DNA of 64,000 nt from positions 2,810,501-2,874,500 of the forward strand of contig NZ_CP012109.1 of NCBI RefSeq assembly GCF_000280925.3. Direction: 5' to 3'. Origin of the DNA: Myxococcus hansupus (lineage in GTDB: Bacteria; Myxococcota; Myxococcia; Myxococcales; Myxococcaceae). This document shows, piece after piece, positions 1 to 24,400 of this stretch; position 1 is the first letter of the stretch, and every line of letters starts with the position of its first letter. The notes below the pieces were generated by a model. That model ran no database searches. It was not told where the DNA came from and saw only the letters and a program-made list of their open reading frames with translations. The position numbers were made by a program, and so were the translations under genes.

Positions 1-3000
1 GTCTGGACGGCGGGACGGGGCCTGTCAGTGGGCAGCTCGAGAACGGGCGGAGCGCCCGTGAGCTGATTGCGCCAGAAGTCGAGCTGGGCCTGGAGGACCG
101 CGCCCTGGAGCCAGCCGCGCTGCCACGCCGCGAAGTCGGCGTACTGCACCGGCAGTGGGGCCAGTGACGAAGGCGTGCCCTGCGTCAGCGACAGGTAGAG
201 CGAGCCCAACTCACGAATGAGCACACCCATGGACCAACCGTCGGAGACGATGTGGTGGAGGGTGAGCACGAGCACGTGTCGCGCGGGGGCGAGGCGGAAC
301 AGTCGCGCGCGCAGGAGTGGGCCGTCCGCGAGGTTGAAGGGGCGCTGGGCCTCCTCGGAGACGAGGCGGCGGGTCTCCGCGTCCTGCTCGGCTTCCTGCA
401 TTCCGCTCAGGTCGACCCGCGGAAGCGGAACCTCCAGGCGCGCGAGAATGCGCTGGAAGGCGTCCTCACCTTGCGCGGCGAACGTCGTGCGGAGGGATTC
501 GTGCCGGAGGGTGAGTGCCTCCAACGCTTGCTGGAGCAGCTCGGGCTGGAGGTCGCCTTCCAGGAGGACAGCGGTGGGAATGTTGTAGGCAGCGCTGCCG
601 GGCTCCAACTGGTCGATGAACCAGAGACGCTGCTGGGCGAAGGAGAGCGGCAGGTGTCCCTCGCGTGAAGCGGGCACGAGCGGCGGCGCGGACGCGTTGG
701 GACGCGTGCCCCCGTCGATGCGTGAAGCCAACGCGGCGAGCGTCGGCGATTCGAAGAGGGCGCGCAGGGGCAGCTCGACGCCCAGCTCGCGACGGAGCCG
801 GGAGACGACTTGCGTGGCCAGCAGCGAGTGCCCACCCAGCGCGAAGAAATCATCGGCCGCGGTGATGGACTCGACGCCGAGCAGCTCGGTCCAGAGCGCG
901 GCGACCCGCTTCTCGGTCTCGGTCTCCGGTGCGCGCGCCGCGGCGCGGGCGAGGGACTCCGCGCCGGGAATGGGGAGCGCGCGGACGTCCAGCTTGCCGT
1001 GCGCGGTGAGCGGCAGCGCGGGCAGGGAGACGAACGCGGCGGGGACCATGTAATCGGGGAGCACCTCGGCGAGGCGCGCGCGCAACGACGCCGCATCCAG
1101 GGCCGCATCCCCCTGCGGCACCACGTAGGCCACCAACCGTGAGTCACCGGACGCGTCCTTCCGGACCATCGCCGCGGCCTGCCGGGCTCCTGCGTGAGCG
1201 ACGAGGGCGGACTCCACCTCGCCCAGCTCCACGCGGAAGCCTCGCAGCTTCACCTGCGCGTCCAGTCGGCCCAGGAACTCCAGCGAGCCGTCCGCGCTCC
1301 AACGCACGTTGTCGCCCGTGCGATACAGCCGCCCACCCGGCGTGCCGCCGAACGGGTCGGGAACGAACTTCTCCGCGGAGAGGTCCGCGCGGCCCAGGTA
1401 CCCACGCGCCAGACCCACGCCGCTGATGAACAGCTCGCCCGCGACGCCCGCGGGCACCAGCTCCATGGCGCCATTGAGCACGTACAGCCGCGTGTTGGGC
1501 CACGGCTTGCCCATGTCCGGCGCGCGCGTGCCGTTCGCCGCCAGCGGCTCACGGGTGATGGAGGCGCAGACGGTGACCTCGGTGGGGCCGTACGCATTGA
1601 GCAGACGGACGCGGCCAGCCCAGGCCTGGACCAGCTCCGGCGTCAGTGCCTCGCCCGCGCAGATGAGCGTCTCCAGCGACGACAGGCCCCGCGGCTCCAG
1701 CCGTGCGAGCACCGACGGCGTCAGGGTGACGGCGGTGATGCGATGCTCGTCCAGCAACGCACGCAGCGGTGCGTCGGGCAGCAGCCGCTCCCGCGGCGCC
1801 ATGACCAGCGTGGCTCCCGCGACGAGCGTGGCGAACACCTCGCACACGGCGGCGTCGAAGCCGGGGGACGCGAACTGAAGAACGCGGCCCTGGGGGTGGT
1901 AGCCGTGCGCGTGCGCGGCGGCCACGGCGGTGTTCACCAGACCGCGATGGCTCAGCAGCGTGCCCTTGGGACGGCCGGTGCTTCCCGACGTGTAGATGAT
2001 GTACGCGAGCTGCGCGGGCTCCACGGCCGTGACGGGCGGCGCGTCCGACGGGTTCGCGGCGATGCGTGCGCTCTCTGCATCCAAGAGCACGCGAACGGGG
2101 CCGGCGGGGAGCAGTGACTCCGGCAGGGTGCTCAGGGTCAGCACCACCTCGATGGCGGCGTCCCGCACCATGAACGCCAGTCGATCCGAGGGATACGTCG
2201 GGTCGAGGGTGACGAACGCACCCCCGGCCTTGTGGATGGCGAGCATGCCCACCACGAGGTCTTCCGAGCGCTCCACGCACAGGCCGACGCGAGACTCCGG
2301 TCCCACGCCCAGCGAGCGCAGGTGATGCGCGAGCGCGTTCGCCCTCGCGTCGAGCTGGCTCCGGGTGAGGCGCGTGTCCCCAGCGATGACGGCGAGCGCG
2401 TCCGGTGCGTTCCGGGCCTGCGCTTCGATGAGCTGGTGCGCGCCGCGGTCCTCGGGGAAGGGGGCGGCGGTGTCGTTCCAGCTCACGAGCAGCCGCTGGC
2501 GCTCCGTGGGCGTGAGCAGCGGGAGCTGTGCGATGGGCAGCGCCACGTCCGCGACGAGCGCCTCCAGCAGCACCCGGAAATGACCGACCATGTGCTCCAC
2601 GGTCGACACGTCGAACAGGTCGGTGCTGTAGGTGAGAATCCCGCTGAACCCGTTGGGCGACTCGGCCAGGGCCAGGGTGAGGTCGAACTTGGTGGCGGTG
2701 ATTTCCGGGCGCAGGACTTCCAGGCCCAGGCCCGGCAGGCGCTGCTCGGTGCCCGGCGTGTTCTGCAGCACGAACATCACCTGGAAGAGCGGTGAGTGGC
2801 TGAGGCTGCGCTCCGGGCGCAGCTCCTCCACCAGCCGCTCGAAGGGGACGTCCTGGTGCTCGTAGGCGGCCAGCGTCGTGCGCTTCACGTTCGCCAGCAG
2901 CTCGGGGAAGGTCTGCGCAGGAGACACCTGGGTGCGCAGGACCAGGGTGTTCACGAAGAAGCCGATGAGACCTTCCAGCTCGGTGCCACGGCGTCCCGCG

Positions 3001-3965
3001 ATGGGCGAGCCGACGCTGATGTCGTCCTGGCCGGAGTAGCGCGACAGCAAGAGTTGCCACGCGGCCAGCAGCACCATGAAGGGCGTGGCGCCATGCCGCT
3101 GCCCCAGCGCGATGATGGCTTGCGTGAGGGGGTTGCCCAGCTCCACGCGGACCGCGCTGCCCCGGAAGGTCTGCGCGGCGGGGCGGGGACGGTCGGTGGG
3201 CAGCGCCAGCGTGGGCGCCGCGCCCGACAAATGGCCGCGCCAGTAGTCGAGCTGCTTCTTCAGCACCGGCCCCTGCATCCAGTCCCGCTGCCAGACGGAA
3301 TAGTCGGCGTACTGCACGGGCAGGGGAGGCAGCACGGGCTCGCGCCGGGTGGCGTGGGCCGAATAGAGCACGGCCATCTCCTGGGCCAGCACGGCGGTGG
3401 ACCAGCCGTCGGAGATGATGTGGTGCATGGACAGGAGCAGCACGTGCCGCTCGGGCGACAGGCGCAGCACGGTCGTCCGGAACAGCGGCCCCTGCTCCAG
3501 GGAGAAGGGACGGCGCGCCTCTTCCGCGGCGACGCGCCGGGCCTCCGCTTCGCGCGTGGCCTCGGGCACGCCCGTGAGGTCGATGACGGGCAGCGCCACC
3601 GTGCCTTCGGGATGGACCACCTGGAAGGGCAGGTCGTCATCGCCTTGTTGGAACGTGGTGCGCAGCGCCTCGTGTCGGCGGACCAGGTCCGCCAGGCCCT
3701 GCTCCATCGCGCGCAGGTCCAGCGCGCCATCCAGCCGCACCGCCACCGGGATGTTGTAGGTGGACGAGCTGCCGCCCTCGAGCTGATTGAGGACCCACAG
3801 GCGTTGCTGGGAGAAGGACGCGGCCACCGGGCCGCTGCCTTGACGCCGCGGGATGCCCGGTGCCGCCTGGGCCTCCTGCTGCTTCTGCCGCTGTCGCAGC
3901 AGGGCTTCGAAGAGCTCCCGCTGCTTGGGGGACAGCTTGCCAAGTTCCTTCGAGATGTCGCGCAT
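1..3965 (-). CDS. NRPS, C-A-PCP-C..., 3' end outside window
   Basis: Non-ribosomal peptide synthetase, cytoplasmic; only the first ~1321 residues are visible. Translation from ATG at 3965 is uninterrupted to base 1. Order seen: N-terminal helix MRDISKELGKLSPKQRELF, typical of a docking segment; condensation domain with HHIISDG from residue ~181; adenylation domain with TSGSTGRPKG near 652 and NAYGPTE; carrier domain GGHSLL with the phosphopantetheine Ser at ~1047; second condensation domain with HHIVSDG near 1237, cut by the edge. By GrsA alignment I read the pocket residues as D-A-C-T-I-A-A-V-C-K, close to the Phe code DAWTIAAICK, so an aromatic or bulky hydrophobic amino acid is likely; this is prediction by eye. 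It lies 103 bases downstream of the minus-strand PKS and probably takes that module's chain. No strong ribosome site is seen before the ATG; a large hairpin lies 22 bases upstream. Confidence 0.95.
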   Translation of the reverse strand, partial: MRDISKELGKLSPKQRELFEALLRQRQKQQEAQAAPGIPRRQGSGPVAASFSQQRLWVLNQLEGGSSSTYNIPVAVRLDGALDLRAMEQGLADLVRRHEALRTTFQQGDDDLPFQVVHPEGTVALPVIDLTGVPEATREAEARRVAAEEARRPFSLEQGPLFRTTVLRLSPERHVLLLSMHHIISDGWSTAVLAQEMAVLYSAHATRREPVLPPLPVQYADYSVWQRDWMQGPVLKKQLDYWRGHLSGAAPTLALPTDRPRPAAQTFRGSAVRVELGNPLTQAIIALGQRHGATPFMVLLAAWQLLLSRYSGQDDISVGSPIAGRRGTELEGLIGFFVNTLVLRTQVSPAQTFPELLANVKRTTLAAYEHQDVPFERLVEELRPERSLSHSPLFQVMFVLQNTPGTEQRLPGLGLEVLRPEITATKFDLTLALAESPNGFSGILTYSTDLFDVSTVEHMVGHFRVLLEALVADVALPIAQLPLLTPTERQRLLVSWNDTAAPFPEDRGAHQLIEAQARNAPDALAVIAGDTRLTRSQLDARANALAHHLRSLGVGPESRVGLCVERSEDLVVGMLAIHKAGGAFVTLDPTYPSDRLAFMVRDAAIEVVLTLSTLPESLLPAGPVRVLLDAESARIAANPSDAPPVTAVEPAQLAYIIYTSGSTGRPKGTLLSHRGLVNTAVAAAHAHGYHPQGRVLQFASPGFDAAVCEVFATLVAGATLVMAPRERLLPDAPLRALLDEHRITAVTLTPSVLARLEPRGLSSLETLICAGEALTPELVQAWAGRVRLLNAYGPTEVTVCASITREPLAANGTRAPDMGKPWPNTRLYVLNGAMELVPAGVAGELFISGVGLARGYLGRADLSAEKFVPDPFGGTPGGRLYRTGDNVRWSADGSLEFLGRLDAQVKLRGFRVELGEVESALVAHAGARQAAAMVRKDASGDSRLVAYVVPQGDAALDAASLRARLAEVLPDYMVPAAFVSLPALPLTAHGKLDVRALPIPGAESLARAAARAPETETEKRVAALWTELLGVESITAADDFFALGGHSLLATQVVSRLRRELGVELPLRALFESPTLAALASRIDGGTRPNASAPPLVPASREGHLPLSFAQQRLWFIDQLEPGSAAYNIPTAVLLEGDLQPELLQQALEALTLRHESLRTTFAAQGEDAFQRILARLEVPLPRVDLSGMQEAEQDAETRRLVSEEAQRPFNLADGPLLRARLFRLAPARHVLVLTLHHIVSDGWSMGVLIRELGSLYLSLTQGTPSSLAPLPVQYADFAAWQRGWLQGAVLQAQLDFWRNQLTGAPPVLELPTDRPRPAVQ

Positions 3966-4068: not shown

Positions 4069-7000
4069 TCAGTTTTCCTGGGCGGCCTTGGCCAGCAGGT
4101 CCTCGAGCTGGTCGTCGGGCGTGTTGGCCACCTGGTCGAGCAGCTCCTGGTAGAGCGCTGCTTCCTGGGCCTCCTTCGCCACGGTCACCGCCTGGGCGAG
4201 CCCCGACACGGTGGAGACCTCGAACAGCTTCGCCAGGGGCAGGTCCACGTTGAACGCGGAGCGCAGCCGGCCCACGATGCGCGTGGCCAGCAGCGAGTGT
4301 CCGCCCAGGTCGAAGAAGCTCTCGTGGCGGCCCACCTGCTCCACGCCGAGGACCTCCTGCCACATGGCCGCGATGGCCTGCTCCGTCTCGTTGGCGGGCG
4401 GCACGTAGGTGCCCTTGCGCGCCTGCCGCGAGGCGGACCCGGAGGGGCGGGTCGCGGGGGCGTCCCGGTGGATCCACACCGCCAGGCGGTGGGTCAGGTC
4501 ACCCGTGGCCACCACGACCGGACCGTCCAGGCCCTGCGTGGCGAGCCGGCGCACCGCCTCCGCGCCTTCCTCGCGCGTCATGGCGTACTGGTCCATGCTC
4601 GTCTTGAAGCCCGCGTAGTGCTTCGTCTCCTCGGGCCAGCCGTCCCAGGACGCGCTCACCCAACGCGTGCCGCCCACGCCCCGGGCCGCGCGGTTCGACG
4701 CGAAGGCGTCCATGAACACGTTGGCGGACGCGTAGGTGAGGTAGCCGAGACCACCGAGCACCGCCGCGTTGGAGGAGAACAGCAGCACGAAGTCGATGTC
4801 CCGGCCGCGCAGCGCCTCGTCCAGCGCGTAGGTGCCGTACACCTTGGGCTGGAACTGCGTCTCGGAGGCCTGCGTGCCCAGCTCCGTGAGCGAGCTGTAC
4901 AGCGAGTCACCGTGGGTGACACCGGCGCAGTGAAGCACGCCGTGCAGCACGCCGAAGCGCGACTCCACCTGCTCCACGACGGTCCGCATCCGCGCGGCGT
5001 CCGACACGTCCGCCGCCAGCACGAGCACCTCGGCCCCGTGGGCCTCCATGGCGCGCACGCGGTGGATGAGCTTGCTGATGCGGTCGTCCTCGCCCTTGTC
5101 GGTCAGCCAGCCGTCCCACGACTCGCGAGCGGGGAAGGCCGAGCGGCCGAGCAGCACCAGCCGGGCGCGCTGCGTCTCCGCCAGGTGCTCGGCGAGCAGC
5201 AGACCCACGCCGCCCAGACCACCGGTGATGAGGTACACGCCGCGCTCGCGCAGCGGGTGCACGGGCGCGTCTCCGCCCATCTTCACCGGGGTGAACTCCT
5301 GCACCCAACGGCGCGTGCCCCGGAAGGCCACCAGCATGTCGCGCGTGCGGGTGGACAGCTCGGCGAGCAGGCCGCGCGCGAGCGTGTCCGCGGCGCTGGC
5401 CTCCGGGAGCACCACGTCGATGCAGCGCGTGGCGACGTGCTGGTGCTCCTGCGGCAGCACCTTGCACACGCCCAGCATCGTCGCCTTCTCGGGCAGCGCC
5501 TCCGCGGCGCCGTCCGGGTCGTGCACGTGGTTGGAGATGACCTCCACGCGCACGGGCTCGCTGCCGCCCGCCTTCCCCAGGGCCTGGGCCAGGAAGAGGA
5601 GGCTGTAGTAGCCGCGCGACTGCGTGTCGCGGAAGCGCTCGGAGGACGACGCGACGTCCCCTTGCTTCGTGAGGCTCCAGAAGTGGACGAACACCTCGGG
5701 GCGGTGCGCGCGGCCCTTCAGGGCTTCGAGCAGCGACACGTAGTCGGCCGGCTGTCCCGGCGCCACGGTGAAGCGGTGGTCGTCCTCGCGGGCGAAGCTG
5801 GTGCCCGCCTGCACGGTGACGACGTCCTGGCCCGCCTCGGCCAGCAGCGCCAGCAGCCGCGAGGCCAGGGGGCCTCCGTCCGTGAACACCACCCAGCCTC
5901 GCGGGGAGGCCAGCGTCTCAGGCTTCGCGGCCAGCGGCGGCGTGCGCCGCCACGACGGCAGGTGGAACCAGTCCGCCACGTCGGGCAGCTTGCCCTGCTG
6001 CGTGGCACCGGCGCTCGCGGAGCGCTCGCCGGGCGGGACGAAGAAGCGCTCCCGCTCGAAGGGGTACGGGGGCAGGGACACGCGGCGGCGAGGACCGTGG
6101 GCATGCACGCCCAGCCAGTCCACCTCCACGCCGCCCAGCCACAGCCGACCCAGGGCGCCCTGGAGGAAGGCCTCGTCGGGCTGCGGGTCCTTGGGGTGCG
6201 GCAGGGAGGAGATGTACGGCCGCGTCCCCGGCGCCTCGCCCTGGAGCTTCGCCAGGGCCGTGAGCGACTGCGCGGGCCCCACCTCGAGCAGGACGCGCGC
6301 GGGCTCGGCCAGCAGCACGCGCAGACCCTCCATGAAGCGCACCGGCTGGCGCAGGTGGTCCACCCAGTACTTGGGCTGGGTGACCTCCTCGGCGGTGATC
6401 CAGGTGCCCGTGAGGCAGGACACGTAGCGCCGCGTGGGCGGGTTCAGCTTCAGGCTGGCGACCTTGGCGTGGAACTCCGCCAGGATGGGCTCCAGCATGC
6501 GTGAGTGAGCCGCCGCGTCCACATGCAGGCGCCGGTGCTCCACGCCACGCGCCGTCAGCGTGGCCGCCAGCGCCTCCACCGCGTCGGTGCGGCCCGAGGC
6601 CACGCACTGGTCGGGCGCGTTCACCGCGGCGAGGTCCAGGGCGTCGCCCAGCAGGGGCCGCAGCTCGGCCTCCGGCAGGCTGACGCTGAGCATGGCGCCC
6701 GCGGGCACCCCGTCGATGAGCTTGCCGCGCAGGGCCACCAGGGCCACCGCGTCTTCCAGGGACAGCACGTCCGCCAGGCAGGCCGCGGCGTACTCACCCA
6801 GGCTGTGGCCAATCATGGCCTCCGGCTCGATGCCCCAGGACATCCAGAGGCGGGCGAGCGCGTACTCCACGGCGAAGATGGCGGGCAGCGCCAGGGCATT
6901 GCGAGACAGGCCGTCCACGGTGTCGCCCGGCGCGGCTTGAATCACGGCGAGCAGGTTGGAGACGCCGTGCGGGCGGAGCAGGGCGGCGATGCGGTCCATC

Positions 7001-8682
7001 TCCGCACGGAAGACCGGCTCGGTGCGGTAGAGGCCGCCGGCCATGCCCGCGTGCTGGGTACCGCCGCCCGGCAGCAGGAACACCACGGGGCGGGTGCGGG
7101 ACTCCTGGTGCGTGGTGACGACGCGCTCGGGCTCCTCGCCGCGCAGCACGCGCACGGCTTGCGCGTGGTCGGACACCACCGCCATGCGGCGGTAGGAGAA
7201 GTGCTGGCGGCCCGTTTGGAGCGTGTAGGCCGCATCCGCCATGGACAGCTCCGGGTGCTGCTCCAGCCACGCGGCCAGCGCCGTGGTGGCGCTGTCGAGC
7301 GCGGAGTCCGTCCGGGTGGCCAACGGCAGCACGTTCCAGGGGCGGCTCGGCGCGGCGGTCTCCAGCGCGGGGGCCTCCTCCAGGATGACGTGGGCGTTGG
7401 TTCCGCCAATGCCGAACGCGCTCACGCCCGCGCGGCGCGGGTGGGCGCCCGCCTTCCACTCGCGCAGGGTGGCGTTGACGAAGAAGGGGCTGTTGGCGAA
7501 GTCGATCTGCGCGTTGGGCTGCTCGAAGTGCAGCGTGGGCGGCATCTCCCGGTGCTTCAGGCAGAGCACGGCCTTGATGAAGCTGGCGATACCGGCCGCC
7601 GCGTCGAGGTGGCCAATGTTCGTCTTCACCGAGCCCAGCGCGCAGAAGCCCGTGTCATCCGTGCTGGCGCGGAACGCCTTGGTGAGCGCGCGCACCTCGA
7701 TGGGGTCACCCAACTGGGTGCCGGTGCCGTGCGTCTCCACGTAGGTGATGCTCCGCGCGTCCACGTCCGCGGCGGCGAGCGCGTCGCGGATGACGCGGGC
7801 CTGGCCCTGGACGCTGGGCGCGCCGAAGCTGGCCTTCTGCGAACCGTCGTTGTTGATGGCCGAGCCGCGGATGACGGCGTGGATGGTGTCTCCATCCGCC
7901 AGCGCATCCTCCAGGCGCTTGAGCACCACCACACCCGCGCCGTTGCCGAACACCGTGCCCTGCGCCTTCGCGTCGAAGGCACGGCAGTGTCCGTCCGGCG
8001 AGGACACGCCGCCGAATTGGTACAGGTAGCCGCTGCGCTGGGGGGCCTGGATGGCGACGCCACCCGCCAGCGCCATGCGGCACTCACCAGCGAGCAGGGC
8101 CTGTCCGGCCAGATGCACGGCCACCAGCGCCGTGGAGCACGCGGTGTGCAGCGAGTACGCCGGTCCCCGCAGGTTCAGCAGGTGAGACACGCGCGTGCTG
8201 AGAAACGCGAGGTCGTTGCCCAGGCCCAGCTCGAACGCGCCCGCGCCACCCAGCGCCGCCGGGTTGGAGAAGAGGTTGAACACGTAGGTGTTCGTCCGCG
8301 CGCCCGCGTAGACGCCAATCCGGTCCTTGTACCGGCTGGCGTCGTAACCGGCGTCTTCCAGCGCCGACCACGCGCACTCCAGGAAGACGCGGTGCTGCGG
8401 GTCCATCAGCTCCGCTTCCTTGGGCGGGATGCCGAAGAAGGACGCGGCGAAGTCTTCGGCGCCGTCGACCATGGCCGCCGCGCGCACGTAGTTCGGGTCC
8501 TTGCGCAGGGAGGCATCCTCCATGAGCGAGGGCTCCAGCTCCGAGTCCTGGAGCGGCACGATGGACTCCACGCCGCCGCGGAGGTTCTTCCAATACGTTG
8601 CGACGTCGGGGGCTCCCGGGAGGCGGCACGCCATCCCGATGACCGCGATCTCAAGCCCGTTCCACGCGTTTTCATCAGCCAT
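4069..8682 (-). CDS. One-module type I PKS, KS-AT-KR-ACP
   Basis: Cytoplasmic polyketide extension module of 1537 residues. It has KS with active Cys ~182 (TACST), His ~318 (VETHGTGT) and KTNIGHL; AT with Ser ~627 (GHSLGEY) and the carboxylate-binding Arg in ALRGKL; KR with GGLGGVG, SSN and Tyr ~1317 (YASAN); carrier Ser ~1463 (LGGHSLL). There is no DH or ER, so the predicted beta-carbon is a hydroxyl. The AT selectivity motif reads AAAH instead of HAFH (malonyl) or VASH/YASH (methylmalonyl), so substrate is uncertain. The KR lacks both the LDD (B-type) and Trp (A-type) markers. The C-terminus PDDQLEDLLAKAAQEN looks like a docking helix for the NRPS encoded next. An AGAGGA ribosome site precedes ATG 8682; the gap to the glycosyltransferase is 27 bases, implying one operon. 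It resembles the PKS at 16935-21458 on the other strand. Confidence 0.95.
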   Translation of the reverse strand: MADENAWNGLEIAVIGMACRLPGAPDVATYWKNLRGGVESIVPLQDSELEPSLMEDASLRKDPNYVRAAAMVDGAEDFAASFFGIPPKEAELMDPQHRVFLECAWSALEDAGYDASRYKDRIGVYAGARTNTYVFNLFSNPAALGGAGAFELGLGNDLAFLSTRVSHLLNLRGPAYSLHTACSTALVAVHLAGQALLAGECRMALAGGVAIQAPQRSGYLYQFGGVSSPDGHCRAFDAKAQGTVFGNGAGVVVLKRLEDALADGDTIHAVIRGSAINNDGSQKASFGAPSVQGQARVIRDALAAADVDARSITYVETHGTGTQLGDPIEVRALTKAFRASTDDTGFCALGSVKTNIGHLDAAAGIASFIKAVLCLKHREMPPTLHFEQPNAQIDFANSPFFVNATLREWKAGAHPRRAGVSAFGIGGTNAHVILEEAPALETAAPSRPWNVLPLATRTDSALDSATTALAAWLEQHPELSMADAAYTLQTGRQHFSYRRMAVVSDHAQAVRVLRGEEPERVVTTHQESRTRPVVFLLPGGGTQHAGMAGGLYRTEPVFRAEMDRIAALLRPHGVSNLLAVIQAAPGDTVDGLSRNALALPAIFAVEYALARLWMSWGIEPEAMIGHSLGEYAAACLADVLSLEDAVALVALRGKLIDGVPAGAMLSVSLPEAELRPLLGDALDLAAVNAPDQCVASGRTDAVEALAATLTARGVEHRRLHVDAAAHSRMLEPILAEFHAKVASLKLNPPTRRYVSCLTGTWITAEEVTQPKYWVDHLRQPVRFMEGLRVLLAEPARVLLEVGPAQSLTALAKLQGEAPGTRPYISSLPHPKDPQPDEAFLQGALGRLWLGGVEVDWLGVHAHGPRRRVSLPPYPFERERFFVPPGERSASAGATQQGKLPDVADWFHLPSWRRTPPLAAKPETLASPRGWVVFTDGGPLASRLLALLAEAGQDVVTVQAGTSFAREDDHRFTVAPGQPADYVSLLEALKGRAHRPEVFVHFWSLTKQGDVASSSERFRDTQSRGYYSLLFLAQALGKAGGSEPVRVEVISNHVHDPDGAAEALPEKATMLGVCKVLPQEHQHVATRCIDVVLPEASAADTLARGLLAELSTRTRDMLVAFRGTRRWVQEFTPVKMGGDAPVHPLRERGVYLITGGLGGVGLLLAEHLAETQRARLVLLGRSAFPARESWDGWLTDKGEDDRISKLIHRVRAMEAHGAEVLVLAADVSDAARMRTVVEQVESRFGVLHGVLHCAGVTHGDSLYSSLTELGTQASETQFQPKVYGTYALDEALRGRDIDFVLLFSSNAAVLGGLGYLTYASANVFMDAFASNRAARGVGGTRWVSASWDGWPEETKHYAGFKTSMDQYAMTREEGAEAVRRLATQGLDGPVVVATGDLTHRLAVWIHRDAPATRPSGSASRQARKGTYVPPANETEQAIAAMWQEVLGVEQVGRHESFFDLGGHSLLATRIVGRLRSAFNVDLPLAKLFEVSTVSGLAQAVTVAKEAQEAALYQELLDQVANTPDDQLEDLLAKAAQEN

Positions 8683-8709: not shown

Positions 8710-10017
8710 TCAGTGGCTCCGCCTGCGGAGGCGCTGCTGCTCCAGTGCGGAGCGCCTGCGTGGGCCGGAGGAGGTGTCTTCGTCTTCGTCGGTCGCGCCC
8801 GTCTGGGCCGCCGCGGGCTGCGCGCCACCCAGCCGCGTCAGCAACTGTTCGATGTGTTGCCGCGCGACCATGAGGCCCTGCTCGCCCCGGACGCGCTCGC
8901 CCACCGCGGTGGACGCTTCGCGGATTCGCGGAGACGTCAATGCCTCGCGGATGGCGTCACCCAGGCGCGCGGCCGTCAGTTGTGAAGCGGGCAGGGGCGC
9001 CGGCGCGCAGCCGCGGTCGAAGCCCAGGTCCGCCCAGAGGAACTGATCGTAGGCATGCGGCACCAACACCTGCGGCGTACCCGCTCGGAAAGCCAGCGAG
9101 CAGGTTCCCGCGCCGCTGTGGTGCACGACACAGGCGGTGCGCGGGAAGAGCCACGAATACGGCAGCATGCCATCCACGGCGAGGAAGCCCGGCGGCAGCG
9201 CCTGCTTCGCCAGCCGGCTGGCGCCGCTCTGGATGATGGCCCGCCGGCCCGAGCGGAGCGCGGCGTCCACCAGCAATTGCGTGAAGGCTTCCGGGTCCTG
9301 GTGCAGCAGGCTTCCGAAGGTGAAGAACAGCGGGGGCTCGCCCTCGGCCAGGAAGTCCTTCAGCGCGTCGGGCGGGGTCCACGCCAGCGCATCGCCCTCC
9401 AGGTAGAAGTAGCCCACCATGTGGTGGTGCCCCGGCAAATCACGCGGCGGCGGGCGCACGTGCTGGCTCATCGCATACAGGACAAGCTGCGGTGATTCCC
9501 CGTCCACCAGCGGATTGTGAAACGGCGGCAGCCCGGCGTTTTGTCTCACGGGATTGATGAGACGCCGCACGGCCTCGAGAAACGCGGGGTGCCCTCCGCC
9601 GCTGCCGGAGTGCTCCACGTAGACGGACACCAGCGGGATGCGCGTGAGGTCGTGGACCATTCGCGCCGCGGGCTGCACGCGTCCGCTGATGAGGACGTCC
9701 GCTCCGGCGCAGGCGGCGCGCAGGTCCTCGAGCATGCGAGGCAACCCGGTGGCCAGCGGCGTGAAGAGCGACTGGAGATGATCGCCCTCACCGATGCGGT
9801 CCGGGCTCACCATCATCTGCCGGGTGATGTCGTCTTGCGCGTGGCTCAGATCCGGGCCCACCGGCGTGAACGGCACGCCCTGGGCGCGGGCGAGCGGCTC
9901 GAACGAGGGCGGCAGCGCGAGCACGGGATGATGCCCATGGCGTCGCAGCTCCTGGGCCAGGGCCACGAAGGGCAGGATGTCTCCCGTACTTCCGAAGTTT
10001 GTCAGCACCGCGCGCAT
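8710..10017 (-). CDS. GT1/MGT-type glycosyltransferase with PKS-like C-terminal tail
   Basis: A 435-residue glycosyltransferase of the UGT/MGT (GT family 1, GT-B fold) type used on macrolides and lipids. Visible are the N-terminal nucleotide-fold opening GSTGDILPFVALAQEL and the C-terminal donor-site stretch around residue 299, HHSGAGTCSLAFRAGTPQVL followed by PHAYDQFLWAD. It likely transfers a sugar from an NDP-sugar to the hybrid product; no sugar-biosynthesis genes are in the window, so the donor must come from elsewhere. AGGAG lies five bases before ATG 10017, and it is the first gene of the minus-strand operon. Odd: the last residues, RRRSALEQQRLRRRSH, follow an acidic linker and match the extreme C-terminus of the PKS at 21486-24635 (RRKQSLEQQRSRRR), a type of tail normally seen after megasynthase carrier domains. 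Confidence 0.92.
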   Translation of the reverse strand: MRAVLTNFGSTGDILPFVALAQELRRHGHHPVLALPPSFEPLARAQGVPFTPVGPDLSHAQDDITRQMMVSPDRIGEGDHLQSLFTPLATGLPRMLEDLRAACAGADVLISGRVQPAARMVHDLTRIPLVSVYVEHSGSGGGHPAFLEAVRRLINPVRQNAGLPPFHNPLVDGESPQLVLYAMSQHVRPPPRDLPGHHHMVGYFYLEGDALAWTPPDALKDFLAEGEPPLFFTFGSLLHQDPEAFTQLLVDAALRSGRRAIIQSGASRLAKQALPPGFLAVDGMLPYSWLFPRTACVVHHSGAGTCSLAFRAGTPQVLVPHAYDQFLWADLGFDRGCAPAPLPASQLTAARLGDAIREALTSPRIREASTAVGERVRGEQGLMVARQHIEQLLTRLGGAQPAAAQTGATDEDEDTSSGPRRRSALEQQRLRRRSH

Positions 10018-10299: not shown

Positions 10300-10464
10300 T
10301 ATAGAGGCGGTTCACTCGGGTAGCGTGCGAGCGGGCTGCCTCCTCCTGATGGAGCGGCGTGCGGGTTCGGGGGTTGTTGACCGGCGATGTTTTCCGGGTT
10401 CTCCGTACTCCGTTTGGTGTTTGGCCGCATGACATCCCTGGCCCTGTGCACTGCAGGAGAAGAC

Positions 10465-16922
<6,458 letters not shown>

Positions 16923-16934
16923 GGCAGGGACATC

Positions 16935-19900
16935 ATGAGCCAGAGCACCGAGTACCAGGGAGATGCGAGCCTCGCCGTGGCCATCGTGGGCATGGCCGTG
17001 CGCGTGCCGGGCGCGGAGGACGTGGAGGCCTTCTGGCGGAACCTGCGCGAAGGCATCGAGTCCATCCGCCACTTCACGGACGATGAGCTGCGGGCGCTCG
17101 GTGTGTCGCCGGAGGCGTTGGCCCATCCCCAGTTCGTCCGCTCGGCCCCGGTGCTGGAGCGGCCGGGCCGGTTCGATGCGTCCTTCTTCGGTTATTCGCC
17201 GAGGGAGGCCGAGGTGCTCGACCCCCAGCACCGCGTCTTCCTGGAGTGTGCCTGGACGGCGCTGGAGCACGCGGGTTACGCCCCGGGCCGCATCCCGGGC
17301 GCGACCGCCGTCTTCGCGGGCTCCAGCCTGAGCAGCTACCTGCTGTTCAACCTGCTGTCGCGCGCCGAGTTCCAGCAGGCCGAGGACACGTTCCCGGCCA
17401 TGGTGGCCAACGACAAGGACTTCCTGGCCACCCGGGTGGCCTATCACCTGGACTTGAAGGGCCCCGCGCTCACCGTGCAGACGGGGTGCTCCACGTCGCT
17501 GGTGGCCACCCATCTGGCCTGCCAGTCGCTGCTCGGCTACCAGAGTGACATCGCGCTCGCGGGCGGCGTGTCCGTGCACATGCCGCAGCGCACGGGCTAC
17601 GTGCACCAGGAGGGCGGCATCACCTCTCCGGACGGGCACTGCCGCGCCTTCGACGCGAAGGGGCAGGGCACGCTGTTCGGCAGCGGTGCCGGCGTCGTCG
17701 TCCTCAAGCGGTTGGAGGACGCGCTGGCGGATGGTGACACCATCCACGCCGTCATCCGCGGCTCGGCCATCAACAACGATGGCTCCGCGAAGGTGGGCTT
17801 CGTCGCCCCGAGCGTGGAAGGCCAGACGGAGGTCATCTCCCGCGCGCAGGCCATGGCCGAGGTGGCGCCGGAATCCATCGCCTACGTGGAGACCCATGGC
17901 ACCGCCACGCAGCTTGGCGACCCGGTGGAGGTCGAAGCGCTGACCCAGGCCTTCCGTGCGGGCACGGAGGCGAAGGGCTTCTGCGGCCTTGGTTCGGTGA
18001 AGACGAACGTGGGCCATCTGGACGCGGCCGCCGGTGTCACGGGGCTCATCAAGACCACGCTGGCGCTGGAGCACCGGGAGCTGCCGCCCAGCCTGTTCTT
18101 CGAGTCACCCAATCCACGCATCGACTTCGCGAACAGCCCCTTCTACGTCAACGCCGCGTTGAAGCCGTGGGCCGCCGGCGACGCACCTCGGCGCGCGGGC
18201 GTGAGCTCATTTGGCATTGGCGGCACCAACGCCCACGTCATCCTGGAGGAGGCTCCGGCCACCGCGCCGGGCGGCGAGGCGCGACCCTGGCAGGTGCTGG
18301 CGCTGTCCGCGAAGACGCCCACCGCGTTGGAGGCGAGGACGGCCTCGTTGCTGGCCCACCTCAAGGCCCATCCCGAGCAGGCACTGGCGGACGTGGCCTG
18401 GACGCTCCAGATGGGGCGCAAGCCGCTGGAGCACCGGCGCGTGGTGGTGTGCCAGGACCGCGATGACGCGCTCCAGGTGTTGGAGTCGCGCGACCCGCAG
18501 CGCACCTTCTCGTTGTCGCCAGGGGCCACGCGGCCCTCGGTCGTCTTCATGTTCCCCGGCGGCGGCGCGCAGTACGCGGACATGGGGCGTGGGCTGTACG
18601 CCTCCGAGCCCGTGTATCGCGAGGCGGTGGACCGCTGCTGCGAGCTGCTGCGCCCCAAGCTGGGCTTCGACCTGCGGACGATTCTCCACCCCGACGCGGC
18701 GAACCTGGCCGCGGTGCAGCAGCGCATCAAGAAGACGTCGGTGGCGCTGCCCTCGCTGTTCACGGTGGAGTACGCCACCGCGCGCCTCTGGGAGTCCTGG
18801 GGCGTGAAGCCCGAGGCGCTCATCGGCCACAGCCTGGGCGAGTACGCCGCGGCGTGCCTGGCGGGTGTCTTCTCGCTGGAGGACGCGCTGTCGCTGGTGG
18901 TGAAGCGGGGGCAGCTCTTCGAGGAGCTCCCCGGGGGCGGCATGTTGAGCGTCCCGCTGCCCGAGGCGGAGGTCCTTCCGTTGCTGGGTGACCAGCTCTC
19001 CGTCGCGGCGGTGAACGGCGCCGCGCAGTGCGCGGTGGCCGGGACGGTGGAGGCCATCGAGGCGCTCGCCGCGGAGCTCACGCGCCGCGAGGTGGAGTTC
19101 CGGCACATCCAGATTGACGTGGCGGCGCACTCGCACCTGGTGGAGCCGCTGTTGGGGCGCTTCCAGGCCTTCGTGGCGGGCCTCACGCGCAACGCCCCGT
19201 CGCTGCCCTTCGTCTCCAATGTCACCGGCACCTGGATTACGCCCGAGGAGGCGGTGGACCCGGTGTATTGGACCCGGCACCTTCGCCAGACGGTGCGCTT
19301 CAGCGAAGGCGTCGCCGTGCTGCGCGAGCAGCCCGGCCGCGTGTTCCTGGAAGTGGGCCCGGGCCGGACACTCAGCACGCTGGTTCGCCTGCGCACGGCG
19401 GGGGCCGCGGCGCCCGTGGTGTTGTCCTCGGTTCGCCACCCCCAGGACCCGATGGCGGACGATGCCTTCCTGGCCATGTCGCTGGGCCGGCTCTGGACCG
19501 CGGGCGTCGAGGTGGACTGGTCCGCGGTGCACCATTCCGCGCGGCGCCTTCGCGTGCCGCTGCCCACCTACGCCTTCGAGGGCCAGGACTACTGGCTCGC
19601 GCCCGAGGCCGCTTCCACGCGTCAGCGCGGTGTGGCCCGCAAGGGCGCGGACCTCGCGGGGTGGTTCTACCTGTCGGCCTGGCGGGCAGCGCCGTTGCCG
19701 CTGACGCGTGCGGCCCCCGCGACGCTCAAGGGCTGGCTGCTCTTCGTGGACAGCGGTGGCGTGGGACAGGCCCTGGCCGAGCGGCTGCGGCAGCAGGGGC
19801 ACGTGGTCACCACGGTGGAGGCGGGTGCGAGCTTCTCCCGGCTGGACACGCATCGCTATGTCGTGGACCCGCGCGTGCGGGAAGACCTCGGCGCCGTGTT

Positions 19901-21458
19901 GCGCGCGCTGAAGGAGTCTCCCCGCCCCGTGGAGCAGGTTGTTCACCTGTGGAGCCTGGATGCGGCGTCCAGCTTCGACGAAGCGCAGGAACTCGGCTTC
20001 TACAGCGTCCTGCGGTGCTTCCAGGCGCTCACCGAGGTGTCTCCGGACGCCGAGGTCGACCTGACCGTCGTGGGCCGTGAGGCGCTGGAGGTGGAGAGCG
20101 CCGACACCGTGGCCCCCGAGCGCGCCACGCTGCCGGCCTTGTGCAAGGTCATCCCGCAGGAGCAGCCGTCGTTGACGTGCCGCTACGTGGATGCTCGTGG
20201 TCCGGGCACCGTCGATGCGCTGCTGCGCGAGGTGACGTCGGGGTCCACGGACCCCGTGGTCGCGTGGCGCGGCCGGCATCGGCACGTGCAGCAGCACGAG
20301 TCCCTGCGGCTGGAGGCTGACTCCCTGACGGGGACGCCGCTGAAGCAGGGCGGTGCGTACCTCATCACGGGTGGTCTGGGCGGCGTGGGCTTGATGCTCG
20401 CGGACGCCCTGGCGCGGCGCTGCCAGGCGAAGCTGGTGCTGGTGGGGCGCGCGGGGCTGAAGGGCGACACGGGCGGTCGCCAGCGCGCGGTGCAGGCGCT
20501 GGAAGCGGCGGGGGCGCAGGTCCTGGTGCTGAGCGCCGACGTCGCGGACGAAGCGCGGATGCGCGAGGTGGTGGCGGAGGCGGAGCAGCGCTTCGGCCCC
20601 CTGTCGGGCGTCATTCATGCCGCGGGTCTCGCGGGCGACCGGGCCGTGGGCTTGCTCTCCGGGCTGGATGCGGCGTCCTGCGCGGCGCACTTCCGGGCGA
20701 AGGCGCATGGCACGCTGGTGCTGGAGCGGGTGCTCGCGGGCCGCACGCTGGACTTCGTGATGCTCCTGTCCTCCAACGCCGCGGTGCTGGGCGGCCTGGG
20801 CCTGGCGGCGTACGGCGCGGCCAACGCGTTCCTGGATGCCTTCGCGGCGTCTCGCTCGCGGGATGGGGCGCGCTGGCTGAGCACCAACTGGGACGGGTGG
20901 CCCGTGGCGGAGGAGGGCGCGGCGAAGGTGCGAACGAGCATCGACCAGTTCGCCATGTCCGCCGACGAAGCCGTGGAGGCCTTCCGCCGGGTGGTGGAGG
21001 CGCCGCTGAGTGGACAAGTGGTGGTGTCCACCGGTGGGCTGGACGCGCGGCTGGCGCAGTGGCTGCGGCGGGGCCGAGTGGTGGAGACGCCAGCGGCCGC
21101 GGGCGGCGCGCTGCATGCCCGGCCCGCGTTGGGCACGGACTATGTTCCGCCCGCCAACGACGCGGAGCGCACGCTCGCCCAGGTGTGGCAGGAGATGCTG
21201 GGCCTGGAGCAGCTCGGCGTGCACGACAACTTCTTCGACCTCGGGGGCAACTCGCTCTTGTGGCTGAAGATTGTCGGCCGGCTGAAGCGCGAGCTGGGCC
21301 GAGATGTACCGCTGACCTCCGTATTCGAGGCGCCCACCGTGGCCCTGTTGGCGAAGAAGCTGGCGCAGCCCGCGGGCGCGGCGGCCGAAGCCCCCGTCCT
21401 GGATGCGAGCCAAAGCCGCGGCGCTCAGCGCCGGGAGCGCCGCAGCCGGCGGGACTGA
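16935..21458 (+). CDS. One-module type I PKS, KS-AT-KR-ACP
   Basis: Extension module of 1507 residues, expected to act on the peptide from the loader/NRPS encoded 12 bases upstream. KS has Cys ~185 (TGCST), VETHGTAT and KTNVGHL, in the style of KS domains that follow NRPS modules. AT has Ser ~633 (GHSLGEY) and Arg in VKRGQL; its selectivity motif is VAAH, unlike either standard class. KR has GGLGGVG, SSN and Tyr ~1293 (YGAAN) and is followed by NWDGW rather than the usual NWGPW. Carrier Ser ~1440 sits in LGGNSLL. No DH or ER, so a beta-hydroxyl is predicted. The N-terminus is short and acidic; the C-terminus is Arg-rich (QRRERRSRRD). An AGGGA ribosome site precedes ATG 16935. It shares architecture and many motifs with the minus-strand PKS at 4069-8682. 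Confidence 0.95.
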   Translation: MSQSTEYQGDASLAVAIVGMAVRVPGAEDVEAFWRNLREGIESIRHFTDDELRALGVSPEALAHPQFVRSAPVLERPGRFDASFFGYSPREAEVLDPQHRVFLECAWTALEHAGYAPGRIPGATAVFAGSSLSSYLLFNLLSRAEFQQAEDTFPAMVANDKDFLATRVAYHLDLKGPALTVQTGCSTSLVATHLACQSLLGYQSDIALAGGVSVHMPQRTGYVHQEGGITSPDGHCRAFDAKGQGTLFGSGAGVVVLKRLEDALADGDTIHAVIRGSAINNDGSAKVGFVAPSVEGQTEVISRAQAMAEVAPESIAYVETHGTATQLGDPVEVEALTQAFRAGTEAKGFCGLGSVKTNVGHLDAAAGVTGLIKTTLALEHRELPPSLFFESPNPRIDFANSPFYVNAALKPWAAGDAPRRAGVSSFGIGGTNAHVILEEAPATAPGGEARPWQVLALSAKTPTALEARTASLLAHLKAHPEQALADVAWTLQMGRKPLEHRRVVVCQDRDDALQVLESRDPQRTFSLSPGATRPSVVFMFPGGGAQYADMGRGLYASEPVYREAVDRCCELLRPKLGFDLRTILHPDAANLAAVQQRIKKTSVALPSLFTVEYATARLWESWGVKPEALIGHSLGEYAAACLAGVFSLEDALSLVVKRGQLFEELPGGGMLSVPLPEAEVLPLLGDQLSVAAVNGAAQCAVAGTVEAIEALAAELTRREVEFRHIQIDVAAHSHLVEPLLGRFQAFVAGLTRNAPSLPFVSNVTGTWITPEEAVDPVYWTRHLRQTVRFSEGVAVLREQPGRVFLEVGPGRTLSTLVRLRTAGAAAPVVLSSVRHPQDPMADDAFLAMSLGRLWTAGVEVDWSAVHHSARRLRVPLPTYAFEGQDYWLAPEAASTRQRGVARKGADLAGWFYLSAWRAAPLPLTRAAPATLKGWLLFVDSGGVGQALAERLRQQGHVVTTVEAGASFSRLDTHRYVVDPRVREDLGAVLRALKESPRPVEQVVHLWSLDAASSFDEAQELGFYSVLRCFQALTEVSPDAEVDLTVVGREALEVESADTVAPERATLPALCKVIPQEQPSLTCRYVDARGPGTVDALLREVTSGSTDPVVAWRGRHRHVQQHESLRLEADSLTGTPLKQGGAYLITGGLGGVGLMLADALARRCQAKLVLVGRAGLKGDTGGRQRAVQALEAAGAQVLVLSADVADEARMREVVAEAEQRFGPLSGVIHAAGLAGDRAVGLLSGLDAASCAAHFRAKAHGTLVLERVLAGRTLDFVMLLSSNAAVLGGLGLAAYGAANAFLDAFAASRSRDGARWLSTNWDGWPVAEEGAAKVRTSIDQFAMSADEAVEAFRRVVEAPLSGQVVVSTGGLDARLAQWLRRGRVVETPAAAGGALHARPALGTDYVPPANDAERTLAQVWQEMLGLEQLGVHDNFFDLGGNSLLWLKIVGRLKRELGRDVPLTSVFEAPTVALLAKKLAQPAGAAAEAPVLDASQSRGAQRRERRSRRD

Positions 21459-21485: not shown

Positions 21486-24400
21486 GTGGAGACGCAAACG
21501 CCGCTGGAGCTGGACGACGCCGACATCGCCATCATTGGAATGGCGGGGCGTTTTCCAGGCGCACCCGACGTGGAGCGCTTCTGGGAGAACGTACGGGATG
21601 GAGTGGAGTCCATCCGCTTCCTCTCCGAGGAGGAGTGCCGCGCCGCCGGCGTGCCCGAGGCCCGGCTGAAGGACCCCGCCTATGTCCGGGCAGCGGCCAT
21701 CCTGGAGGAGCCCGAGCAGTTCGACGCGGCCTTCTTCGACATCCCGCCGCGCGAGGCGGAGCTCACGGACCCCCAGCACCGCGTCTTCCTGGAGGTCTGC
21801 TGGGAAGCCCTGGAGCACGCGGGGTACGCGGCGCGCGAGTACCCGGGCGCGGTCTCCGTGTACGGCGGCGCCACGTTGAACACGTACCTGCTCATGAACC
21901 TGGCGCGCAATCCGCGCGTCATGGAGTCCGTCGAGCCGGTGCAGATCAACATCGGCAACGGCGGCGACTTCCTCACCACGCGCGTCTCGTACAAGCTCAA
22001 CCTCAAGGGCGCCAGCCACACCGTCCAGAGCGCGTGCTCCACCTCGCTGGTGGCGGTCCACCAGGCCTGCCAGAGCCTGCTCAACGGCGAGTGTGACGCG
22101 GCGCTCGCCGGAGGCGTCTCCGTCAACGTCGGGATGTTCCAGGGCTACCGGTACGTGGAGGGGGGAATGACCTCTCCCGACGGCCACTGCCGACCCTTCG
22201 ACGCGCGGGCCCAGGGCACGTTGTTCGGCAGCGGCGCGGGTGTGGTGGTCCTCAAGAAGCTCCGCAACGCGGTCCGGGATGGCGACACCGTCCACGCGGT
22301 CATCAAGGGCTCTGCCATCAACAACGATGGTGCGCTGAAGGCCGGCTACACCGCGCCCAGCGTCGAAGGCCAGTCGCAGGTCGTCGCGGAGGCCCTGGCC
22401 GCCGCCGGCCTGAACGCGGAGGACGTCTCGTACGTGGAGGCCCACGGCACCGCGACGCCGCTGGGAGACCCCATCGAGGTCCAGGCGCTGACGCAGGCGT
22501 TCCGCGCCACCACCGAGCGCCGCCGCTTCTGCGCGCTCGGTTCGGTGAAGGGGAACGTGGGCCACCTGGACGCGGCGGCGGGAATCACCGGCCTGCTCAA
22601 GACGGTGCAGGCGCTGCGCCACGGCCAGCTCCCGCCGACGCTCCACTTCGAGAGCCCCAACCCCGCCATCGACTTCGACAGCAGCCCCTTCTACGTCAAC
22701 GCCGCCCTGAAGCCCTGGCCGTCGGATGGCGAGCCTCGGCGCGCGGGGGTGAGTTCGTTCGGCGTGGGTGGCACCAACGCCCATGTCGTCCTGGAGGAAT
22801 CGCCCCGGCTGCCGTCCAGCGCGCAGCCTCGCAGGCCGTGGCAACTGCTGCCCCTGTCCGCCAAGACGCCTTCGGCGCTGGAGCAGGCCACGCGCGGACT
22901 CCTGGGGCACCTGGAGGCTTCGTCCACGGGGCAGCCGTTGGCCGACGTGGCGTGGACGCTTCAGGCGGGGCGGCAACGCTTCGCGCATCGCCGCGTCGTC
23001 CTGGCGCGTGACCTCGCCGAGGCAAAGGCCGCGTTGGCGCGAGCGGGTGATGCGCCCGGCGCCGAGGATGCCGTGAACCGGCCGGTGGCGTTCCTGTTCC
23101 CCGGCCAGGGCACGCAGCACGCCGACATGGCGCGTGAACTCTATGACGCGGAGCCGGTGTTTCGCGCGGAGGTGGACCGCTGCTGCGAGCTGCTGAAGCC
23201 CGCGCTGGGCATGGACCTGCGCTCGGTCCTGTACTCGCGGCCCGGCGAGGCGGAGAGCACGGCGCGGCAGCTCGCGCGGACCGAACTCACCCAGCCCGCC
23301 CTCTTCACCATCGAGTACTCGCTGGCGCGCCTGTGGATGTCGTGGGGCGTGAAGCCGGAGGCGATGCTGGGGCACAGCATTGGCGAGCTGGTGGCCGCGT
23401 GCCTCGCGGAGGTCTTCACGCTGGAGCACGCGCTCCAGGTGGTGGCGGCGCGCGGGAAGCTGATGCAGGGGCTGCCCACGGGCTCGATGCTCGCGGTGCC
23501 GCTGTCCGAGGACGAGGTGCAGCCCTACCTGGGGCCCGACGTGACGCTGGCCGCGCTCAACGCGCCCATGCAGTGCGTGCTCGCGGGAACGACCGAGGCC
23601 GTGGCGCGGGTCAAACAGTCGCTGGCGGACGCGGGCGTGAAGGGCACGCTGCTGGACACGTCGCATGCCTTCCATTCGCCGATGATGGACCCCATCCTCG
23701 ACGCCTTCGCCGCTCGGGTGGCCACCGCGCCCCTGCGCCCGCCGAAGTTGCCGTTCGTGTCCAACGTCACCGGGACGTGGATTACCGCCGAGCAGGCCAC
23801 GAGCCCTCGTTACTGGGCGGACCACCTGCGTGGCGCCGTTCGCTTCGCCGACGGCGTCCAGGCGCTGCTCGCGGACGACAAGCGCGTGTTGTTGGAGGTG
23901 GGCCCGGGGAAGGCGCTGGGCGGTCTGGCGAAGCGTCACCCGGCCTTCTCCCCGTCGCGGTATCTGCTGGCCTCGCTGCCGTCGGTCAAGGAGTCGCAGG
24001 CAGGTGAGGGGCAGGCGCCCCGTGCCTACGAGACGTTGGGGGCGTTGTGGCGCGCGGGTGTGCCGGTGGACTGGAAGGGTTTCCACGGCGAGGCCCGTCG
24101 CCGCGTTCCCTTGCCCACCCAGCCGTTCGAGCGCCGTCGCTTCTGGGTGGAGCCCGTGGACGTCGGGCAGCCCGCGGCGCCATCGGCGCAGCAGCCGGTG
24201 GGCGCACCCGCCGCGACGCCTGAGCGGGCCCCCGAGCCGGAGGCGCCGCGCACGTATCACCCGCGCCCGGAGCTGCGCACGCCGTATGTCGCGGCCAGCT
24301 CGGCACTGGAGCGTGCGCTCGTGACGCTCTGGCAGGACTCGCTGGGCGTGTCGCCCATTGGTGTCCAGGACAACTTCTTCGAGCTGGGCGGTGACTCGCT

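Follow-up and report, generated by a model that had tools for sequence, protein, structure and literature searches.

The GT1 glycosyltransferase (hereafter, GT) encoded in the window (i.e., the whole 64,000-nucleotide stretch of Myxococcus hansupus DNA analyzed here) ends in a short basic tail that resembles the C-terminal tails of neighboring polyketide synthases (PKSs). Based on sequence comparisons, we infer that this tail docks the GT at the ketosynthase (KS) of PKS4 and couples glycosylation to the assembly line, a reading of both the binding and the on-line action that we hold to have roughly an even chance of being right. The more specific version, in which the GT is built in like a module, with a carrier-type tail at the KS entry port between two extension modules, and glycosylates the carrier-bound chain, is tentative and somewhat doubtful. 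The tail class itself would be an uncharacterized means of reaching, by way of a basic helix, ketosynthases that have short acidic N-termini. The positions of all features are given in Table 1.

Table 1 Window features that bear on the proposed docking of the glycosyltransferase (numbering of the window).
Feature	Position	Strand	Remarks
GT1 (GT-B fold) glycosyltransferase, assigned	8710..10017	minus	435 aa; Pfam, AF2 core
Basic C-terminal tail of GT	8713..8760	minus	Residues 420-435 RRRSALEQQRLRRRSH; predicted helix 418-434, low confidence
Variable acidic linker of GT	8761..8826	minus	Residues 398-419; pLDDT <50 at 398-428
PKS1: FAAL-ACP-C-A(luciferase-like monooxygenase inserted)-PCP	10387..16922	+	Two overlapping ORFs in window; Pfam
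PKS1 basic tail DRAKRQLESLKRQRQRARK	16863..16919	+	
PKS2: KS-AT-KR-ACP	16935..21458	+	Domain scan
PKS2 basic tail SQSRGAQRRERRSRRD	21408..21455	+	
PKS3: KS-AT-ACP	21486..24635	+	Domain scan
PKS3 basic tail RRKQSLEQQRSRRR	24570..24611	+	Closest match to GT tail in window
GMC oxidoreductase, no basic tail	24665..26299	+	Pfam GMC_oxred_C and _N; tail score -1
PKS4: KS-AT-KR-ACP; proposed docking partner	4069..8682	minus	Next gene after GT, same direction
PKS4 short acidic N-terminus MADENAWNGLE; proposed docking port	8650..8682	minus	Directly before KS
NRPS after PKS4, runs off window	3..3965	minus	Condensation, adenylation, carrier domains (Pfam)

Pfam matches above the cut-off to EryCIII-like_C (PF06722, 53.1 bits) and Glyco_transf_28 (PF03033, 28.2 bits), together with the predicted fold, assign the GT, as a predicted glycosyltransferase, to the GT1 family with a GT-B fold. 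The AlphaFold2 (AF2) model, built from a 15-sequence orthologue alignment (A1), has a mean pLDDT of 74.8 and a pTM of 0.69, and its core resembles UGT51, GtfA, GtfB, and GtfD (best PDB matches, Foldseek), all of which are GT-B enzymes. UGT51 (5gl5) is a sterol glucosyltransferase whose likeness to the GT catalytic core is strong (Foldseek E-value 6.3e-26; profile match 3.6e-48), and GtfA, GtfB, and GtfD are GT1 glycopeptide glycosyltransferases that share the GT-B core with the window GT. The tail lies beyond these similarities: among 42 distinct PDB sequences, including those of UGT51 and GtfA/GtfB/GtfD, the best matched stretches stop by GT query residue 399 and leave it uncovered. Likewise, among the plasmid-set matches listed (30 of 117 records), the alignments (not the protein ends) stop by query residue 396. 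Model confidence drops over the same part of the protein (pLDDT <50 at residues 398-428 and 430-435). The C-terminus reads PRRRSALEQQRLRRRSH (in a longer reading, ...TDEDEDTSSGPRRRSALEQQRLRRRSH) behind a variable acidic linker, the acidic stretch ahead of the tail being DEDEDTSSG. Pfam identified no carrier domain in the GT, so the tail stands without the domain that precedes it in the PKSs, and it may act like a carrier-borne tail but is not one. Scans with Rfam and for promoters and terminators around the GT gene returned nothing useful.

Using a search of 96 family genomes (E-value 1e-70), we found GT orthologues at 18 loci in 17 genomes, and a single scan of the genome-contig set added an orthologue with 51% identity in an Acidobacteria metagenome-assembled genome (MAG; L055). 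All 19 ends that were read (18 family loci and L055) carry a basic C-terminal tail, i.e., RRRSALEQQRLRRR in the window, RRRSALKQQRARK and close variants in clade B, RRRSVMEQQRARRR in Archangium lansinium (L052), PRRKALLQRRRTLHEDE in a different genus (G099), and SRRKQHQQKQRARAKV in the Acidobacteria MAG. L051, which corresponds to genome G024 (placed in the window's genus), holds a GT 96% identical to that of the window. In alignment A1, residues R420, R421, A424, L425, Q428, R429, and R431 are invariant across 15 sequences, and the linker ahead of them varies in length and sequence; positions 424 and 425 vary in Archangium and L055. Within clades, pN/pS (simple proportions over few codons) is 0.24 for the catalytic core, 0.71-0.87 for the linker (residues 398-417), and 0.27-0.38 for the tail, and between clades the values are 0.54, 0.90, and 0.54, respectively. 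These comparisons indicate that the GT tail is constrained, whereas the linker drifts. By comparison, none of the 17 ends read from other, more distant GT1 proteins has a basic tail (a set that leaves out L016, L023, L024, L028, and L159, with L016 being the same gene as L158), and a tail as a general GT1 feature was rejected on these 17 ends. The first-pass annotation had named similar tails on many unrelated GT1 enzymes as the observation that would speak against a docking role; no such tail was seen among the 17 ends.

That annotation had also described one tail as shared by the GT and the PKS at 21486-24635 (PKS3). The likeness was confirmed, but the PKS3 tail lies near the end of the protein rather than at it: RRKQSLEQQRSRRR at 24570-24611 is followed by seven residues (ATDDSDL). 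In a six-frame search of the window, the pattern [ALIVM][ED][QE]Q[RK].{0,2}[RK]{2} matched just the GT and PKS3 tails. Using BLOSUM62, the GT tail scores 50 against the PKS3 14-mer (self-score 67), compared to 22 for the best of 256 control C-termini, which were sampled from 20 stretches of 20 kb spread over the same genome, and none of 100,000 shuffled versions of the GT C-terminus (last 45 or last 18 residues) reached 50. The likeness of the GT and PKS3 tails is thus greater than expected by chance. Over 16 residues, the score is 50 in both the window and G024 and 32-39 in the seven other genomes compared, suggesting that the closeness is partly local; the wider motif common to the GT and PKS3 tails is looser ([RQ]R[RK]..L..QR). 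At the DNA level, the two tails share 23-28 of 48 nucleotides (best 16-residue alignment, 9 of 18 loci; in G005 the best alignment fell on the acidic stretch and not on the tail). Recent copying of the PKS3 tail DNA into the GT gene, which had been offered earlier as an alternative origin by recombination, is not supported, given this low identity, and fits poorly with the presence of the tail on the 51%-identical Acidobacteria MAG GT, although the tail may have been copied in the distant past.

We then compared the tail class across all loci gathered, in a census that scored each ORF by its last 40 residues (tailed if at least seven R or K occur in a 16-residue stretch), dropped identical last-40-residue ends, and worked with a rough ORF caller and regular-expression matching. 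All 14 distinct GT ends in the census passed this rule. The GTs of G011 (L003), G099, and L055 were missed by it; counted by hand, the 16-residue tail has seven R/K in the L055 GT and six in the G099 GT, which fails the numeric rule because of this count (6/16). As had been proposed from the window, such tails normally follow carrier domains: 35 of 36 carrier-ended proteins that precede a KS-first protein, with a short N-terminus, are tailed, whereas none of the 14 that precede a condensation-first protein is. The single exception is the modular PKS at 40253-45826 of the window. Judged by eye, the 35 tailed junctions comprise about five families, of which two belong to this line (PKS1-PKS2 and PKS2-PKS3) and three to other clusters. 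The 14 condensation-first junctions all link PKS4 to the NRPS and form one orthologous family. Because about five junction families are set against one, and the counts are of sequences and not of independent cases, the association is suggestive but not strong, and the contrast with condensation-first neighbors is weak. Where neither neighbor type was found, 26 of 43 carrier-ended proteins in cluster loci and 0 of 2 in random stretches are tailed; the 26 are mostly PKS3 orthologues and locus-edge PKS1 or PKS2 proteins, and the 17 untailed ones mostly PKS4 orthologues, end modules, and window modular PKSs. The association in these few families suggests that the tail serves to dock onto ketosynthases whose N-termini are short and acidic. 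In agreement with the earlier claim, tails of the class seen on the PKSs are also present on the GT orthologues.

Basic composition alone is unspecific, given that 13 of 285 non-carrier ends from random stretches pass the R+K rule (4 of 247 in the fetched loci). Non-carrier entries directly before a KS passed in three of 11 cases (L089, L108, and L112), and all three are misclassified carriers that show carrier and adenylation motifs (confirmed by Pfam for L089). A luciferase-like monooxygenase encoded right before a KS (L099, Pfam) has no tail, and the ends in L101 and L117 are alike; a single-enzyme gene directly before a KS need not carry one. At the 51 tailed junctions (GT junctions included), the KS prefixes are net negative in 48 and have zero charge in three, and the tails, which were selected for basic residues, have charges of +3 to +9. 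Tail charge and KS-prefix charge are not correlated across the tailed junctions (Spearman 0.11, p 0.45), and the idea of specificity through charge-matched pairs of tail and KS prefix was rejected on this basis. The four modular PKS proteins that end inside the window (27589 to 61354) have no basic tail, and each is followed by a KS-first partner with a longer N-terminus. The region 27589-63999, with its adjacent modular PKSs, longer pre-KS N-termini, and untailed upstream partners, appears to represent another docking class.

The assembly line runs from PKS1 through PKS2, PKS3, and PKS4 to an NRPS, and the gene order around the GT makes PKS4 its candidate partner. The KS of PKS4 starts at residue 11 (Pfam), with about 10 residues ahead of it, and 27 nt separate the GT stop codon from the PKS4 ATG. 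At each of the 18 family loci, the next gene on the GT strand is PKS4, which encodes a KS-first protein whose N-terminus is short and acidic. At L055, one gene intervenes between the GT and the KS gene; this gene (L055 11573-12589) encodes a second glycosyltransferase (Pfam group 1) without a tail. At 12 of the 18 family loci, the GT is flanked by PKS3 and PKS4 with all three genes on one strand, namely in clade B (G003, G004, G005, G008, G009, G013, G014, G015, G020, G025, and G026:C9) and in G099 (11 by gene map and G008 by KS match positions). The genes downstream of PKS4 differ in G026:C9 and G020. The GT-PKS4-NRPS half and PKS1-3 are divergent in the window, G024, G011, and Archangium, whereas in G012:C54 and G026:C30 this half was found without PKS1-3 in the stretch covered. 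The genomes G026 (C30, C9) and G012 (C54, C140/C453) each hold a PKS1-PKS2-PKS3 locus and, apart from it, a GT-PKS4-NRPS set.

Six genomes of the genus (G001, G006, G007, G018, G021, and G023; loci L073-L078, L098, L100, and L102) have a PKS4 relative (at 77-78%), placed beside PKS2 in divergent orientation, and no GT orthologue, and the GT is therefore not needed for chain transfer. The PKS3 tail RRKQTLARQR[DN]LRR is kept in the three GT-less genomes that were mapped (G001, G006, and G021), showing that it is independent of the GT. Based on Pfam, window PKS3 has no KR domain and the PKS3 of G014 (the one clade B PKS3 scanned) has one, with the GT present in both; KR domains are also present in window PKS2 and in PKS4 of both the window and G014. 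Because the GT is kept with a window PKS3 that has no KR, and PKS2 and PKS4 have this domain, the acceptor hydroxyl is probably made by PKS2 or PKS4 rather than PKS3. Two further features of the synthases were recorded. G014 PKS4 (L043 48-4574) has a partial AT match of 30.3 bits, below the cut-off, compared to 180.9 bits for the AT of window PKS4, and this clade B PKS4 may be AT-poor within a line that is otherwise cis-AT. Window PKS1, the first AMP-binding domain of which we read as the FAAL, is split at 14532-15060 into two ORFs that overlap and lie in different frames. In G024, PKS1 is a single 2178-aa ORF, and the aligned region is one base different in length; the split reflects either a genuine frameshift or an error in sequencing.

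When the GT tail was compared to the PKS1, PKS2, and PKS3 tails of the same locus (9 of 18 loci), PKS3 was closest in seven and PKS1 in two (G014 and G005, each by one point). The margins are small to moderate outside the window and G024, and the clade B GT tails are nearly as close to the PKS1 tail as to the PKS3 tail. PKS4 is the first-choice partner, because the inferred acceptor of PKS3 is PKS4, the gene adjoining the GT. In the proposed mechanism, a normal GT-B enzyme would have been extended by an acidic, flexible linker followed by a short basic helix like those borne by carrier-terminated PKS/NRPS proteins. The helix would bind the short acidic N-terminus of the PKS4 KS, or a nearby surface, at the port that the PKS3 tail would use. 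Since a KS is a homodimer and would offer two ports, the GT and PKS3 could possibly share one dimer. The flexible linker would then let the GT reach the acyl chain on the assembly line, and the sugar would be added before release. An AlphaFold model of the window GT tail read through into the PKS4 KS predicts a helix over the tail (model residues 31-49), with block-mean pLDDT values of 61 and 49 for the tail and 28-31 for the linker; two of 16 alignment rows cover the tail, five misaligned tail-only rows having been removed between alignments A2 and A3, and the model, scored by pLDDT only, speaks neither for nor against docking.

Three other explanations of the tail were weighed against docking at PKS4. 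The tail could dock and yet just concentrate the GT near the synthases, at any KS port, with glycosylation after release. Most known natural-product GTs work after chain release, and in clade B the GT tail is about equally like the PKS1 and PKS3 tails, for which reason it is possibly not specific to PKS4. The gene order, in which PKS4 follows the GT at 18/18 family loci and the GT sits inside the assembly-line order at 12/18, argues against this explanation, and we regard it as unlikely, although still a serious contender. A different possibility is that the tail is a generic basic helix that binds membranes or polyanions or aids solubility, and that it resembles the PKS tails by convergence on an Arg-rich composition. 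The 13/285 equally basic C-termini of random non-carrier proteins are consistent with this idea, as is the fact that the contrast between KS-first and condensation-first junctions rests on few junction families. However, residue order matters beyond composition (0/100,000 shuffles reach the GT score), and the positions invariant among the 15 orthologues are spaced i, i+4, i+8 (420/424/428 and 421/425/429), as expected of one helix face, albeit with variation at 424/425 in Archangium and L055. Convergence of this kind is improbable.

The tail might instead be a relic of an insertion of the GT gene between PKS3 and PKS4, during which the gene would have acquired a copy of the PKS3 3' end that is functionless now. 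In clade B, the GT gene directly follows PKS3, and its tail resembles that of PKS3 at the protein level, as such an event would predict. The limited DNA identity of the GT and PKS3 tails (23-28/48 nt) argues against it, as does the constraint on the tail, which approaches the level seen in the catalytic core, whereas the linker drifts. Moreover, the tail persists in the window clade, whose GT has shifted away from PKS3, and in the Acidobacteria MAG. A functionless relic is thus quite improbable, and docking at the PKS4 KS remains our preferred reading.

Several known docking systems resemble the proposed one in part. The class 1 and class 2 cis-AT docking domains (helix bundles) are C-terminal elements behind an ACP that bind the N-terminus of the next KS protein, as the GT tail would. 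These pairs use N-terminal helices before the KS, for which PKS4, with its ~10 residues, has no room. Another parallel is the epothilone EpoB/EpoC-type NRPS-to-PKS junction, where a carrier-terminated protein feeds a KS-first protein whose N-terminus is very short; the EpoB C-terminus has reportedly been studied biochemically. In NRPS and PKS-NRPS lines, the SLiM/betaHD system likewise recruits the downstream partner through a short motif at the C-terminus. Unlike PKS4, which has its KS from residue 11, that partner has an N-terminal betaHD domain, and a review (PMC9113145) describes the SLiM as binding in the form of a short beta-strand, whereas the GT tail is predicted, with low confidence, to be a basic helix. 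Docking elements on tailoring enzymes have precedent, because the same review reports SLiMs at oxidase C-termini and betaHD domains on methyltransferases (MT), thioesterases (TE), thioester reductases, and halogenases (PMC9113145). A second paper (PMC13324335) concerns SLiM/betaHD and not the basic-tail class. In a term search of the whole text of PMC9113145, the words 'glycosyltransferase', 'arginine', and 'positively charged' were absent, and among open-access titles none on a glycosyltransferase docking tail was found. We class the docking of tailoring enzymes (SLiM/betaHD) as known; what would be new is the involvement of a GT and of a basic tail directed at a ketosynthase.

If the proposed docking is true, a portable tag of ~16 residues would aim a tailoring enzyme at a step inside the assembly line, and the finding would point to a docking class whose key words are absent from the review (PMC9113145). 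It would also reveal the timing of glycosylation in this pathway and provide a route to placing sugars at chosen steps.
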